Source of the DNA: Candidatus Omnitrophota bacterium
GTDB taxonomy: Bacteria > Hinthialibacterota > Hinthialibacteria > Hinthialibacterales > JAKPRU01
DNA: 13,459 nt
NCBI GenBank assembly: GCA_029557025.1
Contig: JAKPRU010000732.1
Location: 1-13,459 of the forward strand
Reading direction: 5' to 3'
A model generated the notes under the pieces. The model made no database searches, was not told the origin of the DNA, and was given only the letters and a program-made list of their open reading frames with translations. Position 1 is the stretch's first letter; every line of letters starts with the position of its first letter. Positions 6,287 to 12,999 of this stretch are shown here, one piece after another. A program made the translations under genes and the position numbers.

Positions 6287-7087
6287 TCAGTCAGAGTCGG
6301 GGTGGTCTTTCGAAGGCGGTTTTGCAGGGCGGGTTCCATCCAGGATTTCGTGGAGATACAGGTAGCGCATGAAAACAGAAAACATGGAAAACATCGCGAT
6401 CATGAATCCCTGTTTGCCGTCGAGAAATCCGCGCTTGAGGATGTAAGCGCGAAAGAAACGCCAGAGCGGTCGCAGGGAAAGGTTGAAGAAAGTCGGGCGA
6501 TCCCCGCGTTCGTGTGCGTTATAGGCCGACCACAGCGCGTAACGATGAAACCGTTCCATCCATACATCCAGATTCTCAAAGGTGTAATGCAGCAGAGGAT
6601 GTTTGAAATGGCCAACAGGACCATCCACAATGACTCTCGAATGGATCTGGCGAATCTCAAGCCGACTTTTGTTCTTGAGAAATAAACGGATGGGGCAATC
6701 GTTCTGCCAGCTGGAATACCGGATCCATCTTCCGAAAAATTGGCTTTGGCGGCGGATGGTATATCCGGCAAATCGGGGTTGTTTCATTTCCTCCAGGATT
6801 TCATCGCGGAGCTGTGGAGGGCAGATTTCATCGCTGTCCCAGATGAGGACCCATGGATGTTGAGTATGGCCGATAGCCCAATCATTCTGAGCGTAGTTGC
6901 TCTCATAAGGATGCTGTAAAACCCGACAGCCAAGTTCCCGGCAGATTTCAACCGTCCGATCCGTGCTGAATGAATCCACAACCAGAACTTCATCCGCCCA
7001 GGAGATATTTTCGATACAGGCGCGGATTTTGCCCTCGTTGTTCCAGGTGGTCACAATGACAGAGATGGGATTGTGTTCAGGTTGCAT
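6287..7087 (-). CDS. Family-2 glycosyltransferase, LgtF/WaaE-like (lipopolysaccharide-core type)
   Basis: Protein of 266 aa starting at ATG 7087, with a mediocre ribosome-binding site (AGAGG about 11 nt upstream). The N-terminal GT-A fold is complete: ISVIVTTWNNE (8-18), ADEVLVVDSFSTDRTVEI (31-48), and the nucleotide-sugar/metal motif in LIWDSDE with D84-x-D86. GYTIRRQSQFFGRWIRYSSWQNDCPIRLF (109-135) followed by HSRVIVDGPVGHFKHPLLHYTF (149-170) is the pattern of LgtF/WaaE-type inner-core glucosyltransferases. These transfer a sugar from a nucleotide sugar to heptose or lipid-linked glycans at the inner membrane. The hydrophobic tail (GFMIAMFSMFSVFMRYLYL, 227-245) suggests membrane association. 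The usual HE of this subgroup reads H149-S150 here. It sits 66 nt after rpn and 58 nt before the DUF4091 gene, probably in the same transcript. Sugar specificity is not predictable. Confidence 0.88.
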   Translation of the reverse strand: MQPEHNPISVIVTTWNNEGKIRACIENISWADEVLVVDSFSTDRTVEICRELGCRVLQHPYESNYAQNDWAIGHTQHPWVLIWDSDEICPPQLRDEILEEMKQPRFAGYTIRRQSQFFGRWIRYSSWQNDCPIRLFLKNKSRLEIRQIHSRVIVDGPVGHFKHPLLHYTFENLDVWMERFHRYALWSAYNAHERGDRPTFFNLSLRPLWRFFRAYILKRGFLDGKQGFMIAMFSMFSVFMRYLYLHEILDGTRPAKPPSKDHPDSD

Positions 7088-7153: not shown

Positions 7154-7423
7154 TTACAGCAACGATTCCATTTCGTCCAGGCTTTTCGCTTTGCGCAAGG
7201 TATCTTTGATTTCCTCCAATCTTTCAATGGATTCGATCCGGTCCACACGCGGAGTCAGGGACAGCCCCGCATCTCCGAACTTCAGCTCCAGCGCCAGCCG
7301 AATCCCCTCGCGAAGCCCTTCCACACGGCCAAGTTCTAACCCCTTCTCCATTCCTTTCTCCATTCCTTTCTCCATTCCCTTCTCCATTCCTTCGTTTCGA
7401 ATTCGTTCAAATATCGTCGGCAT
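7154..7423 (-). CDS. Possible intragenic small protein (RpnS-like C-terminal product, candidate antitoxin)
   Basis: An ATG at 7423 is in frame with rpn (codon 246) and is preceded by AGGAGA (complement of 7431-7436) with 7 nt spacing, the best Shine-Dalgarno sequence in this region. The rpn start itself has none. The product would be 89 aa: MPTIFERIRNEG, four MEKG repeats, then LELGRVEGLREG, LALELKFGDAG and a charged helical tail ending LDEMESLL. It lacks all nuclease residues (D60, E80, K82). In E. coli, rpn genes are known to make a small C-terminal protein from inside the gene that blocks the toxic full-length nuclease. Position, frame and size fit that arrangement, but expression is inferred. 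A dedicated internal promoter was not identified. Confidence 0.42.
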   Translation of the reverse strand: MPTIFERIRNEGMEKGMEKGMEKGMEKGLELGRVEGLREGIRLALELKFGDAGLSLTPRVDRIESIERLEEIKDTLRKAKSLDEMESLL

Positions 7424-8158
7424 GAGTGTATCTCCTGTTTCGGGTAATGCTTTTCTTACGCCCTCACGCATCTGTTCTTCATTGATCTTCTCTGTCGCGT
7501 ACCCCACATATTCTAATACGGTTTGCAGGAAATCCATAATATCCTGTTCTTTCGCCAGTTCCGCAAACAGACTCCCGATCCGCACAAACCGCTCCCCGAA
7601 ATCCTCCTCATAAATATGCTTCATCAACAGCAAGATAATCCGCGACAGGACCCGCCCCCGAATCTCCTCTTCACTATACCGCGACAAATCGTACAGGCAA
7701 AACTCGAAGGATGGAATGAACTTTGAAAATCCTTCTACCCTTGGGAACAGTGCGGCAAAATTCGTTTTCCCATACCACCGTTTCTTGCCGTGATAGAACA
7801 CAATCGGAACGATCGGCGGAAAGCGACGGAACCCCTTTTCCTGGCGTGACCGTTCCCAGATTCGGACCATGTATCGCAGCAGATCGAACACCACATAAGG
7901 TTCCGGATGGCTCTTGTGTTCAAAAAGAATATAAACAAAAGCCTCCTCTCCCGTTCGGAGTTTTGCTTTGTAAACCAGGTCCGAGACATATTTCCGCAGC
8001 TCGGCATTCACAAACGACTCACCCGTAGATTCCAGACTCCCTGGCATCAGGTAGGTAGCAATCTCCGGAAGGTTGTTGAAAAGGATGTCCTCGACCGTCT
8101 CCCGGTCGGAGAACACTTTCCTGAAAAAACTGTCGTGCGGCTGGATTGGCTCGGTCAT
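7154..8158 (-). CDS. Rpn-family recombination-promoting nuclease / YhgA-like PD-(D/E)XK protein
   Basis: Protein of 334 aa, the usual length for the Rpn (PF04754) family. It opens with the family signature HDSFFRKVFSDRETVEDIL (9-27), then D60 in VSDLVYKAK and the ExK active-site motif E80-H-K82 in LFEHKSHPEP, then LLRYMVRIWE (93-102) and PPIVPIVFYHGKKRW (114-128). This is a complete PD-(D/E)XK nuclease core. Residues 246-334 form a separate C-terminal region with four GMEK repeats (257-273), a probable coiled coil and a charged tail. Family members cut DNA, can be toxic, and have been linked to recombination and phage defence. The start ATG (8158) overlaps the miaB stop (ATGA) and has no Shine-Dalgarno sequence, so translation probably depends on ribosomes finishing miaB. 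An internal ATG with a strong Shine-Dalgarno sequence lies at codon 246 (annotated separately). Confidence 0.92.
   Translation of the reverse strand: MTEPIQPHDSFFRKVFSDRETVEDILFNNLPEIATYLMPGSLESTGESFVNAELRKYVSDLVYKAKLRTGEEAFVYILFEHKSHPEPYVVFDLLRYMVRIWERSRQEKGFRRFPPIVPIVFYHGKKRWYGKTNFAALFPRVEGFSKFIPSFEFCLYDLSRYSEEEIRGRVLSRIILLLMKHIYEEDFGERFVRIGSLFAELAKEQDIMDFLQTVLEYVGYATEKINEEQMREGVRKALPETGDTLMPTIFERIRNEGMEKGMEKGMEKGMEKGLELGRVEGLREGIRLALELKFGDAGLSLTPRVDRIESIERLEEIKDTLRKAKSLDEMESLL
7341..7388. repeat. 4 x 12-bp in-frame tandem repeat inside rpn
   Basis: Four 12-bp units on the + strand (CCCTTCTCCATT, CCTTTCTCCATT twice, CCCTTCTCCATT) encode four MEKG/GMEK units of the Rpn protein. Units differ only at one position. 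Because each is 12 bp, slippage would add or remove four residues without shifting the frame. Such MEKG runs are common in Rpn family C-termini. Confidence 0.85.
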
Positions 8159-9501
8159 CGTGCCGAATAAGATACAACATCCCCGAACAGGGTATAGGAA
8201 GTTGTCTGCGTGATCCGAACACAGAGAATGTCGCCCGGCTGGGCATCGGGAGAGACTCCCGACACCTTGACAGTCTTGCCCTGGCGCGACCGGCCGTCCC
8301 AGCCGGAATGCCTTCGCTTGTCGGCGGAAGGCTGGTCGAGCATCACTTCCAGCGTTTCTCCGAGTAAAAGTTGATTGATTTCCCGGCTGGTTTGATGTTG
8401 GAGTTCGATCACCCGGGCCAGTCGGCGAGCCTTAGTTTCCTCGTCAAGATGCTCCGACAACGTGGCGGCATAAGTGCCGGGTCGGATCGAGTATTTGAAC
8501 ATGAACGCGCTGTCCCAGCGGACTCGCCGCATAAGATCCACAGTCTCCTCAAAATCGCTCTCGGTCTCTCCGGGGAAACCGACGATCAGGTCCGTGGAAA
8601 TCGCCGGTTGATACGCTGTGGAAACCCCGCTAAAAATCTCCCGAAACCGGTCGATGATTCGCAGGTAATCCTCTCGCGTATGGTTCCGACGCATGGCTGA
8701 GAGGATTCGGTTGGAGCCGCTCTGGACCGGCAGATGAAATTGTTCACAGACTTTCTCTAAATCGCGTAACGCAAACAGCAACCTCTCATTCGTATCCGCC
8801 GGATGAGAGGTGGTAAACCGGATTCGCCGAAGCCCCTCGATAGCATTCACTTTCTCCAGCAGATCCACGAAACCCATATCATCGTATCGGTAGGAATTCA
8901 CGGTTTGCCCCAATAGAGTCACCTCCCGATAACCGCGATCCACAAGTCGACAGATTTCATCCAGCACATGCTGTGGAGATCGGGACCGTTCCGGGCCACG
9001 TGTGTCCGGTACAACACAATAGGAACATCGTCGGTTACAACCCTTCATAATCGTGACAAAACACGGATAGGAAACCGGGCCGTCAGTTGGGACAAAATCT
9101 TCCCGGTCCTCGATATCCAGCATGGAGAGTTCGATAATCGGCCGCTCGTGATTCTCCAAGCGGGCCAGCAAGTGAGGGAGCCTGCTCAATGCCGCCGGAC
9201 CGAGAACCAGGTCAATATAGTCTCTCTCCTTCAGCAGATTCTCGCCGTGCTTCTGAGCCATGCAACCACAAACCGCGATGTACCGGATGACGCCCCGGCT
9301 CTTGAGTGTTTTCAGATGCCCCAATTGCCCCAGGACACGGGTCTCGGCCCCACGTCGCACGGAGCATGTATTGATCAAAGCAATATCCGCTTCCTGCACC
9401 GCCGGAACTGTCTCATGCCCATAAGCACGCAGAATCCCTGCTATCGACTCGGAGTCGTATACATTCATCTGACAACCGAAGGTTTGAAGGTGAAATTTCA
9501 T
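8155..9501 (-). CDS. miaB: tRNA-2-methylthio-N6-dimethylallyladenosine synthase
   Basis: Protein of 448 aa, normal for MiaB. The N-terminal UPF0004/MTTase domain carries the three cluster-binding cysteines C10 (QTFGCQMN), C46 (INTCSVR) and C80 (AVCGCMAQ). The radical-SAM core has the CxxxCxxC motif C155-C159-C162 in MKGCNRRCSYCVVPDTRG, followed by LLGQTVNSY, TTSHP, HLPVQSGS, MRRNHTREDY and DLIVGFPGETESDFE. The C-terminal TRAM RNA-binding domain follows from ~375, with RSRQGKTVKV and PGDILCVRI. FGCQMN and the MRRNHTREDY form separate it from MtaB and RimO. The enzyme uses two 4Fe-4S clusters and SAM to methylthiolate i6A37 of tRNAs in the cytosol, improving decoding of U-starting codons. The start at ATG 9501 has a weak ribosome-binding site. 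It is 49 nt behind the lipoprotein gene, and its TGA overlaps the rpn start by 4 nt. Confidence 0.97.
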   Translation of the reverse strand: MKFHLQTFGCQMNVYDSESIAGILRAYGHETVPAVQEADIALINTCSVRRGAETRVLGQLGHLKTLKSRGVIRYIAVCGCMAQKHGENLLKERDYIDLVLGPAALSRLPHLLARLENHERPIIELSMLDIEDREDFVPTDGPVSYPCFVTIMKGCNRRCSYCVVPDTRGPERSRSPQHVLDEICRLVDRGYREVTLLGQTVNSYRYDDMGFVDLLEKVNAIEGLRRIRFTTSHPADTNERLLFALRDLEKVCEQFHLPVQSGSNRILSAMRRNHTREDYLRIIDRFREIFSGVSTAYQPAISTDLIVGFPGETESDFEETVDLMRRVRWDSAFMFKYSIRPGTYAATLSEHLDEETKARRLARVIELQHQTSREINQLLLGETLEVMLDQPSADKRRHSGWDGRSRQGKTVKVSGVSPDAQPGDILCVRITQTTSYTLFGDVVSYSAR

Positions 9502-10081: not shown

Positions 10082-12744
10082 GTCCGTAACGAGGCCACTT
10101 TGCGCCGGATCAGTTCGAGTTCCTCTTCCGCCTGGGCCAGAACGGTTCGTTCCTTTTCGACAACCTGTGCGGGGGCCTTGCCGACAAACTGCTCGTTGCT
10201 CAATTTCGCCCGACGACGCTCGGTGTCCTGCTCCAGCCGGATCAATTGTTTCTCCAACCGTGCGTATTCTTTTTCCCACACCTCTTCCGGCCAGAGAACG
10301 CGAATCTCGATTCCATCCACTAGGCCGGATGAGGAAGCCGGTTTCTCCTCCCATTTATTCAGAACGCGCAGGTCCTCATTCAGGTTGCACAGGGGACGCA
10401 TATCCGCCCAATATCGACGCAGGAATCCGTCCTGCTGTCCGTCCCGAATCAGGAATTCCACATTGGTTTGTACGGATGGCGCAATCCCCAATTCGCCCCG
10501 GATATTTCGAATCGTATAGAGAATCTTACGAAATCGGTCGGCATCCCGTTCCAAATCTTTCTCGACCAGTGAAAAATCCGGTTTTGGATAGGCGGCAACC
10601 ATGATACTGGGGATATCGGACTGTTCCGTGCAACCGATCTTCCGAAGCATCTGCCAGATTTCTTCCGTGAGGAACGGCATGAACGGGTGCATGAGCCGCA
10701 GTGTGCTTTCCAGGACGAATAACGCGGTTTGCTGGGCCGCTGCTCTTTCCGTCGGATCTTCTCCGTACAGGCGACGCTTAATCAATTCGAGATACCAATC
10801 GCAGTACTCATGCCAAACGAATTGATACACCGCCTCCGCGGCCTCGTTGAATTTGTATTCGCGCATCCCTTTGACCGTCGCATCAATGGCGTGCTGCAAA
10901 CGCGAACGAATCCATCGATCCGGCCAGGACAGGTTGAATTGCGCCTCTCGAAATGCTTTCCCGTCAAAGTGATTCTCATCGACCGTGGCAAGAATCAGCC
11001 GTGCCGCATTCCAGATTTTGTTGGTGAAATTGCGATAGCCCTCAATGCGTTCTTCCGCCAGGTTGATGTTCCTTCCCTGCGCGGCCATGATGGAAAGCGT
11101 AAACCGCATGGCATCGACACCGTACTTGTCGATCACATCAATTGGGTCGATGGCATTGCCCAGAGACTTGGACATCTTGCGGCCCTGCGCATCCCGCACG
11201 AGCGCCGTGATGTAGACTTCACGGAACGGGACATCGCCCATGATATGAAGGCCCATCATCATCATGCGGGCCACCCAGAAATAGATAATGTCGTGCGCCG
11301 TCACCAGCACACTGGTGGGATAGAACGCTTCGAGTTCCGGTGTCTGTTCGGGCCATCCCATTGTGGAAAACGGCCAGAGGGCCGAGGAAAACCAGGTATC
11401 CAACACATCGGGGTCTTGCTGGATGTTTGTGCTTCCGCAATGCGCGCATTTGTCCGGGTCTTTCACGGTAACGGTCTCTTTGCCGCAATCGCCGCAGTTC
11501 CAGACCGGAATACGGTGCCCCCACCAGATCTGACGGGAAATACACCAGTCCCGCACATTCTCCACCCAACCGAAAAAGGTGTTTTCCCACATTTTCGGGA
11601 TAAACACCGTGCGCCCGTCACGGACCGCCCGGATCGGCTCCTCCATGAGCGGCTTCATTTTCACGAACCATTGAAGCGAGAGAAACGGCTCGATCAGCGT
11701 CTCACAGCGATAACACACGCCTACGCGATGACTCAGGTTTTCGACCTTCTCAATCAGTCCCTGCGCCTTGAGATCCTCCAGGACTTTCCGACGGGCCTCC
11801 ATTCGATCCAGCCCGGCGTATGGCCCCCCGTTCTCATTGATCGTCGCATCACTGTTGAAGATATTGATAATCTGCAAGTTATGACGTTTGCCGATCTCAA
11901 AGTCGTTGATATCGTGCGCCGGGGTAACTTTGAGCGCACCCGTGCCGAACGCACGATCCACATAAGAGTCTGCAATCACAGGGATCTTTCGGTTGAGAAG
12001 CGGAAGAATCACTTCCCGCCCGGCAATGTCTTTGTATCGCTCGTCTTCCGGGTGAACCGCAACCGCCGTATCGCCCAGCATGGTCTCAGGCCGGGTGGTA
12101 GCGATGATAAGAGCGCCCGACGCATCGGCATAAGGATATCGGATGTAATAGAACGCTCCCTGTTCGTCGATATATTCCACCTCGTCATCGGAGATGGCGG
12201 TGTGACACCGGGGACACCAGTTCACCAGGTATGTGTCCCGGTAAATGTAGCCTTCGTGATAAAGACGGACAAACACCTCGCGCACCGCTGCCGAAAGGCC
12301 CTCATCCATGGTGAATCGCTCCCGCGCCCAGTCGCAGGAGCAGCCCATGTATCGCAGCTGACGAATAATCGTGCCGCCATATTCCTCTTTCCATTGCCAA
12401 ATCCGCTCAATCATTTTCTCCCGGCCAAGGTCATGGCGCGTGATTCCCTCCGCCTGAAGAGCCTTTTCGACCACATTCTGTGTGGCGATTCCCGCGTGAT
12501 CCGTGCCCGGCATCCAGAGCACCGTGTCCCCTTCCATCCTGCGCCATCGGCAGAGGACATCCTGAAGCGTATTGTTCAGCGCGTGGCCGATATGCAGCCG
12601 CCCGGTGATATTCGGTGGGGGAATGACAATGCTGTAACAAGGTTTCCCTTCATCCAAACGGGCATGAAACAGGTCATGTTTTTCCCAGAACGCATACCAC
12701 TGCTCGCGGGAGGCGGCAGGATCATATCGTGTCGGCAGTTCCAT
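10078..12744 (-). CDS. valS: Valine--tRNA ligase
   Basis: Protein of 888 aa, a normal bacterial ValRS length, from ATG 12744 with GAGGG 6 nt upstream. Class-I signature PPNITGRLHIGHALN puts HIGH at 51-54; KMSKS is at 523-527 in DAQGRKMSKSLGN. The CP1 editing domain spans ~200-350 (IIATTRPETMLGDTAVAVHPEDERY and the FGTGALKVTPAHDINDFEIG region) and hydrolyses Thr-tRNAVal. Four cysteine pairs suggest bound zinc: CPRC 177-180, CYRC 344-347, CGDC 417-420, CAHC 433-436. The anticodon-binding helical domain follows ~600-770. The end (~820-888, KEYARLEKQLIRLEQDTERRRAKL...EEELELIRRKVASL) is the C-terminal coiled-coil arm that contacts the tRNA elbow. It charges tRNAVal with valine using ATP in the cytosol. 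Its TGA overlaps the lipoprotein ATG by 4 nt, and the NIL gene lies 27 nt upstream. The leader of the operon is too short for a T-box. Confidence 0.98.
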   Translation of the reverse strand: MELPTRYDPAASREQWYAFWEKHDLFHARLDEGKPCYSIVIPPPNITGRLHIGHALNNTLQDVLCRWRRMEGDTVLWMPGTDHAGIATQNVVEKALQAEGITRHDLGREKMIERIWQWKEEYGGTIIRQLRYMGCSCDWARERFTMDEGLSAAVREVFVRLYHEGYIYRDTYLVNWCPRCHTAISDDEVEYIDEQGAFYYIRYPYADASGALIIATTRPETMLGDTAVAVHPEDERYKDIAGREVILPLLNRKIPVIADSYVDRAFGTGALKVTPAHDINDFEIGKRHNLQIINIFNSDATINENGGPYAGLDRMEARRKVLEDLKAQGLIEKVENLSHRVGVCYRCETLIEPFLSLQWFVKMKPLMEEPIRAVRDGRTVFIPKMWENTFFGWVENVRDWCISRQIWWGHRIPVWNCGDCGKETVTVKDPDKCAHCGSTNIQQDPDVLDTWFSSALWPFSTMGWPEQTPELEAFYPTSVLVTAHDIIYFWVARMMMMGLHIMGDVPFREVYITALVRDAQGRKMSKSLGNAIDPIDVIDKYGVDAMRFTLSIMAAQGRNINLAEERIEGYRNFTNKIWNAARLILATVDENHFDGKAFREAQFNLSWPDRWIRSRLQHAIDATVKGMREYKFNEAAEAVYQFVWHEYCDWYLELIKRRLYGEDPTERAAAQQTALFVLESTLRLMHPFMPFLTEEIWQMLRKIGCTEQSDIPSIMVAAYPKPDFSLVEKDLERDADRFRKILYTIRNIRGELGIAPSVQTNVEFLIRDGQQDGFLRRYWADMRPLCNLNEDLRVLNKWEEKPASSSGLVDGIEIRVLWPEEVWEKEYARLEKQLIRLEQDTERRRAKLSNEQFVGKAPAQVVEKERTVLAQAEEELELIRRKVASLRT

Positions 12745-12771
12745 GATTCCCTCGTGTCCTCAGTGGCTCCG

Positions 12772-12999
12772 TTAACGGTTGCCCAGAACCTTAATGGTCC
12801 CCTTTTCCTGAAAAAGACGAATGGCGTGTTCGATTTGTTCCTCACTGCCCTGGAGGTCAAGAACAAACTCGGCGCAGTGCTGGTCAACTTTGGCTGATGT
12901 GATCGCGGGAGTCACCCCCGACATCCTGGAAATGTTGAAAATAACCGGTTCCTGAACCAGGTCCTGGGGAAAAGCCACATGCACCGTTTTGACAGCCAT
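12772..12999 (-). CDS. Small stand-alone NIL-domain protein
   Basis: Protein of 75 aa from ATG 12999 (MAVKTVHVAFPQDL...). An in-frame ATG at 13023 would add eight residues but would lie only about 14 nt from the predicted transcription start; GAGG sits ~11 nt before the chosen start. The whole chain is one NIL domain (PF09383, ferredoxin-like ACT-related fold): strand VHVAFPQDLVQEPVIFNISR, then GVTPAITSAKVDQHCAEFVLDLQGSEEQIEHAIRLFQEKGTIKVL. In MetN ABC ATPases this domain is a C-terminal regulatory module that binds methionine. Stand-alone copies are common in anaerobes and candidate phyla and have no fixed role. It is the first gene of the operon, 27 nt ahead of valS. An amino-acid-sensing role next to an aminoacyl-tRNA synthetase is only a guess. 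Confidence 0.82.
   Translation of the reverse strand: MAVKTVHVAFPQDLVQEPVIFNISRMSGVTPAITSAKVDQHCAEFVLDLQGSEEQIEHAIRLFQEKGTIKVLGNR

Follow-up and report, generated by a model that had tools for sequence, protein, structure and literature searches.

A predicted internal antitoxin start within an Rpn-family nuclease gene of a Candidatus Omnitrophota bacterium

Results

The rpn gene and its neighbors

The window analyzed here is a 13,459-nucleotide stretch of a Candidatus Omnitrophota genome (assembly GCA_029557025.1, contig JAKPRU010000732.1). Its minus strand carries rpn (7154..8158), an open reading frame (ORF) of 334 codons for a full-length Rpn-family nuclease (RpnL), called with the PF04754 and TIGR01784 profiles. 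Upstream of rpn lies a radical SAM gene of the UPF0004 type (8155..9501, minus strand), which we take to be miaB, and downstream lies a family-2 glycosyltransferase gene (6287..7087, minus strand), both assigned from the ORF and a profile. The order miaB-rpn-glycosyltransferase gene is common to the window and both other genomes compared from the genus (G001 and G002). Farther along, a 722-aa open frame on the plus strand (10729-12897) runs opposite a long gene, presumably valS, and is probably an antisense open frame without function.

The rpn product scored 176.4 bits against the family profile PF04754 (cut-off, 21) and 63.4 bits against TIGR01784 (cut-off, 52.1). Its catalytic Asp (codon 60; 7979..7981, minus strand) and the E-H-K of the PD-(D/E)XK site (codons 80 to 82; 7913..7921, minus strand) were invariant in 16 aligned relatives, the residues D60, E80, and K82 being unchanged throughout. 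Judged by the profiles and these catalytic residues, it is a predicted Rpn-family PD-(D/E)XK nuclease.

An in-frame ATG at codon 246 of rpn (7421..7423, minus strand), which is also picked out by the order-level alignment, is preceded by AGGAGA (7431..7436, minus strand), an internal Shine-Dalgarno (SD) sequence whose core, AGGAG, pairs with the standard anti-SD at a calculated -7.4 kcal/mol. The spacer is 7 nt long, or 8 nt when counted from the pairing core, and the 16S 3' end of the window's own genome, GGATCACCTCCTTT, is a normal anti-SD. Initiation at this codon would give an 89-aa C-terminal product (7154..7423, minus strand), a candidate RpnS whose start aligns with that of the Escherichia coli antitoxin RpnAS. 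The residues D60, E80, and K82 are all encoded upstream of the internal start and are therefore absent from the small product, which keeps the repeat-containing tail. The first ATG of rpn (8158) has nearly nil SD pairing, -1.1 kcal/mol, and overlaps the miaB stop codon (ATGA, 8155-8158). The same overlap is present in all three genomes compared from the genus, namely, the window genome (G000), G001 (L007), and G002 (L051), which suggests that translation of the putative toxin is coupled to that of miaB.

Rereading of the sequence confirmed what the initial annotation had reported of the position of the internal ATG and its SD, the absence of the catalytic residues from the 89-aa product, and the lack of an SD at 8158. 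Its description of the internal start as strongly initiated is generous in view of the relatives, many of which have AGGAGG or GGAGG at -10 to -13 kcal/mol. Among the in-frame start codons of the window rpn, codon 246 has the strongest SD, narrowly (-7.4 versus -7.3 kcal/mol for Val192), and it was unsurpassed by the starts of nine other window ORFs, which were scored as they stand in the ORF list and may not be true starts.

The tail encoded downstream of the internal ATG is predicted to form a long helix followed by short helices. It contains four 12-nt repeats (7343..7390, minus strand) encoding GMEK four times (codons 257 to 272) and starting at residue 12 of the 89 aa; the definition of RpnS places them 8 to 20 residues after the start. 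The orthologous tails are 89, 85, and 81 aa long and vary in repeat number, in keeping with the hypervariability of the region that sets specificity in the E. coli system. The 12-nt unit, GGA ATG GAG AA(G/A), itself holds an SD-like GGAG and a well-spaced ATG, so that each added repeat adds a potential start; GGAG precedes Met262, Met266, and Met270 by about 6 nt each (-6.4 kcal/mol), creating weaker additional sites. A search for an internal promoter gave one sigma-70-like site inside rpn (7700-7673, minus strand), with 0.8 expected by shuffling.

The window site compared with chance

By itself, the window site is within chance, and it is the comparison with relatives alone that lifts it above chance. 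The motif AGGAG-N8-ATG occurs once in the window against an expectation of 0.34, and at least one occurrence was found in 58 of 200 shuffles. A pairing energy of -7.4 kcal/mol or better was found for 29 of 472 internal ATGs (only 2 at -10 or better) in 80 control frames, which were non-rpn, stop-to-stop, at least 250 codons long, and drawn from the window and order-level loci; some of them are probably not genes. Upon synonymous resampling, the SD of the window rpn was not stronger than the encoded protein accounts for (p = 0.46), and neither was it in excess in the two orthologues (p = 0.40 and 0.25), in both of which another in-frame codon has a slightly stronger SD (at -46 in L007 and -25 in L008 relative to the domain end).

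Conservation of the internal start across Rpn relatives

Conservation of AGGAG and ATG in homologues had been proposed as a check, and we found the site kept in close homologues and far beyond. The alignment comprised 45 Rpn-like ORFs or pieces, 30 of the rows being from the window's order. An ATG or GTG was found at the codon aligned with codon 246 in 25 of these 30 rows; the five without a start codon there were all divergent G008 genes. GGAG lies a few bases upstream of the aligned start in 23 of the 25 start-bearing rows, and of the other two, one is truncated where its contig stops and the other is a stand-alone copy of the tail. In other lineages the SD often persists under different residues, which are Gly-Gly or Gly-Asp in the order, Lys-Glu-Val or Met-Glu-Val elsewhere, and Glu-Glu-Gln in one G008 gene. 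The codon phase of the SD varies as well: of the 61 genes in which the core could be scored, 38 fell in one phase, 22 in another, and 1 in the third.

We then scored the SD pairing of all in-frame ATG, GTG, and TTG codons in 66 genes with a complete domain end and tail, taken from 89 distinct Rpn-like ORFs and reduced to 39 representatives by clustering at 60% identity. The best SD-preceded internal start lay 14 to 33 residues past the nuclease domain, a range chosen after inspection of the data, in 54 of the 66 genes (6.69 expected) and in 33 of the 39 representatives (4.12 expected, P = 2.7e-29). We also used a range of 24 to 34 residues, taken from the offset of the window gene itself: among the 28 clusters lacking an order member, 15 matched (1.46 expected, P = 1.6e-14), and among the 11 that include such a member, 9 did (0.56 expected). 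The best site was not at the boundary in 12 of the 66 genes; both orthologues of the window gene are among these, yet they keep the site.

Whether the SD goes beyond the requirements of the protein, a further check proposed at the outset, was answered differently at the two scales: the window gene and its two orthologues gave no excess, and the wider family did. Synonymous resampling of the 39 representatives gave a combined Fisher P of 2e-7, with 8 of them individually below 0.05. The SD Gly codon was GGA in 18 of 18 order-level genes, whereas GGA made up 59 of 171 Gly codons elsewhere upstream in these genes, which are related and not independent. Wherever both starts were scorable (41 of 41 genes), the small start had a stronger SD than the full-length one (mean, -10.0 versus -4.3 kcal/mol), a contrast that is suggestive only, as the choice of site favors the small start. 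Since the SD is kept while the residues and the codon phase change, the internal start appears to be under selection across the family, and the internal SD and start of the Rpn family are probably real and not a product of chance.

Correspondence with E. coli Rpn and other known systems

M246 of the window Rpn aligns with RpnA M244, at which translation of the E. coli antitoxin RpnAS is proven to begin (Zhong 2023, PMC10327210). RpnAS was lost when the ribosome-binding site and start inside rpnA were mutated together (PMC10327210); we found that the codons for K240-E241 carry the SD and that these are the positions mutated by Zhong et al. (PMC10327210). The crystal chain 7TH0_A corresponds to RpnA residues 244 to 292. 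An internal SD and start are also present in E. coli K-12 rpnA, rpnB, rpnC, and rpnE, the four genes that were read. The one-gene design proposed in the initial annotation is supported by the alignment with M244 and by the conserved SD and start, but it was wrong to contrast an SD in this gene with an internal promoter alone in E. coli, as RpnAS uses an SD of its own and four K-12 rpn genes carry one.

The window gene has in common with E. coli RpnA, RpnB, RpnC, and RpnE a PF04754-type nuclease domain and a start at the aligned codon with its own ribosome-binding site, as well as 4-aa repeats early in the tail whose number varies among relatives. A stand-alone copy of the tail occurs downstream in both lineages, as rpnE-ypaA in E. 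coli and in G002 in the window's genus. The tail of the window protein is longer (89 aa versus 49 for RpnAS), and its similarity to the E. coli tails lies chiefly in the initial portion; a tail profile matched E. coli RpnS with 93% probability over 39 repeat-rich columns. Unlike E. coli rpn, the gene in the three genomes compared from the window's genus lies between miaB and a glycosyltransferase gene, with the stop/start overlap.

RpnAS and RpnBS inhibit their partner nucleases in E. coli, and a repeat added in RpnC abolished inhibition (PMC10327210). An RpnS from Clostridioides difficile, like that of the window, is nonenterobacterial; upon expression in E. coli, production of this small protein required its internal ribosome-binding site and start (PMC10327210). 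The profile search gave no DUF4351 (PF14261) match at an E value of ≤1 for the window protein and tail. This domain matched 5 of 16 related tails scanned and, in contrast to the window tail, is carried by many small proteins among the 120 tail-profile relatives listed of 459, a search that admits short proteins only, many of them on short contigs and some of them fragments.

Stand-alone tails and broken nucleases

In G002, an 81-aa ORF (L051 2096-2341, minus strand) lies between the orthologous rpn and the glycosyltransferase gene and duplicates the segment of rpn that runs from shortly before the internal ATG through the stop codon. It differs from the neighboring tail by a dN of 0.083 and a dS of 0.39 and is one 4-aa repeat shorter; an identical protein is encoded on five database contigs, the longest of 58,234 bases. 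The copy begins 24 nt past the rpn stop and keeps the ATG equivalent to codon 246. Because its own SD is weak (-3.0 kcal/mol), its translation is likely coupled to the rpn stop.

A second rpn locus, which follows a prepilin-like gene, has an intact copy in G001 (C113) and G002 (C412). In the second rpn of G000 (C904; L003 1335-2304), the nuclease frame is broken near the catalytic Asp, possibly by an assembly error, and the tail, AGGAGG, and ATG are intact. Another G002 allele (C800; L052, minus strand, about 997-1340) is missing the nuclease part and retains GGAGG, the ATG, and an open tail; a longer product could arise from another in-frame ATG that lies before this one. Compared with other alleles at the prepilin-like locus, the C800 tail shows a dN of 0.075 to 0.11 and a dS of 0.53 to 0.90, values that span the time when it was still joined to the nuclease and are not proof of constraint on the tail alone.

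The repeat numbers of E. coli rpnE and ypaA (L123 and L126-L132) differ in all eight strains read, giving seven distinct pairs. In G152 (L095), a downstream frame of 58 aa that overlaps the 3' end of an rpn-like gene resembles the tail of that gene (52%), with a four-residue gap, and is possibly a further stand-alone RpnS.

Discussion

The window rpn adds one more example to a design already known, and we consider it likely that it encodes an RpnL/RpnS toxin-antitoxin system in one gene, the antitoxin role being assigned by homology. Translation from 8158 would be weak, probably coupled to miaB, and would give the 334-aa nuclease RpnL. The internal SD and ATG at 7423 would give the 89-aa tail, RpnS, predicted to consist of a long helix of 4-aa repeats and then short helices. 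RpnS would pair through its repeat helix with the identical tail of RpnL, by which the nuclease would be held off, and the better internal SD would leave the antitoxin in excess. The miaB coupling and the excess of RpnS are predictions from the sequence alone; toxicity, binding, inhibition, and a role in phage defense are what the E. coli system would lead one to expect.

The small protein could instead be made as a second subunit on which assembly or activity depends, as in type I-D CRISPR, where Cas11d arises from an internal start within cas10d (PMC10327210); there the internal start is in common with the candidate RpnS, and the product is a complementary subunit, not an inhibitor. The long repeat helix would suit oligomerization, and the tail sequences diverge strongly between lineages, both compatible with such a role. 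Against it, the E. coli small proteins RpnAS and RpnBS act as inhibitors of their partners (PMC10327210), and an intact tail and SD beside a broken or deleted nuclease would be odd for an obligate subunit, even if those losses may be recent. We regard this reading as improbable.

It is less probable again that the SD-like sequence is a by-product of the conserved Gly-Gly or Gly-Asp before the Met and of codon use and that the small protein is absent. The resampling results for the window gene and its two orthologues would accommodate this, and so would the frequency of comparable SDs before internal ATGs (29/472). What argues against it is the persistence of the SD through changes of residue and codon phase, together with the uniform GGA codon and the family-wide Fisher P; moreover, the homologous E. 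coli site is proven functional (PMC10327210), and the stand-alone copy in G002 retains the same ATG.

Least probable is that the main starts lie inside the GMEK repeats, at Met262, Met266, or Met270, yielding products of 73, 69, or 65 aa and isoforms that vary with repeat number. Such starts have their own GGAG, and a database entry identical to the window tail (P0010, on a 2,365-base contig) begins at Met270, although this entry may come from the same organism and its start may be the choice of a gene caller. Against this reading, codon 246 has the strongest SD of the gene, narrowly, and is the start that is conserved, Met is absent from the repeats of relatives that have GREE or GLEQ, and the stand-alone copy retains the equivalent of codon 246.

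The toxin-antitoxin reading extends the gene-within-gene antitoxin, at the level of sequence, to an uncultured lineage; the arrangement has been established by experiment for E. coli genes and, in expression only, for a C. difficile gene (PMC10327210). The family-wide comparison adds a nucleotide-level argument for selection of the internal start and predicts that many genes annotated as a single "putative transposase" encode two proteins that oppose each other.

Stand-alone RpnS copies beside rpn may fail to guard their neighbor, because they are out of repeat register with it and an added repeat abolished inhibition in RpnC (PMC10327210). We think this unlikely; if it were true, the copies might neutralize other, incoming Rpn alleles or store repeat variants. 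Every pair of this kind that was read as sequence differs in repeat number or shows a four-residue gap, namely, one in the window's genus, seven distinct rpnE/ypaA pairs in E. coli, and one diverged pair in G152.
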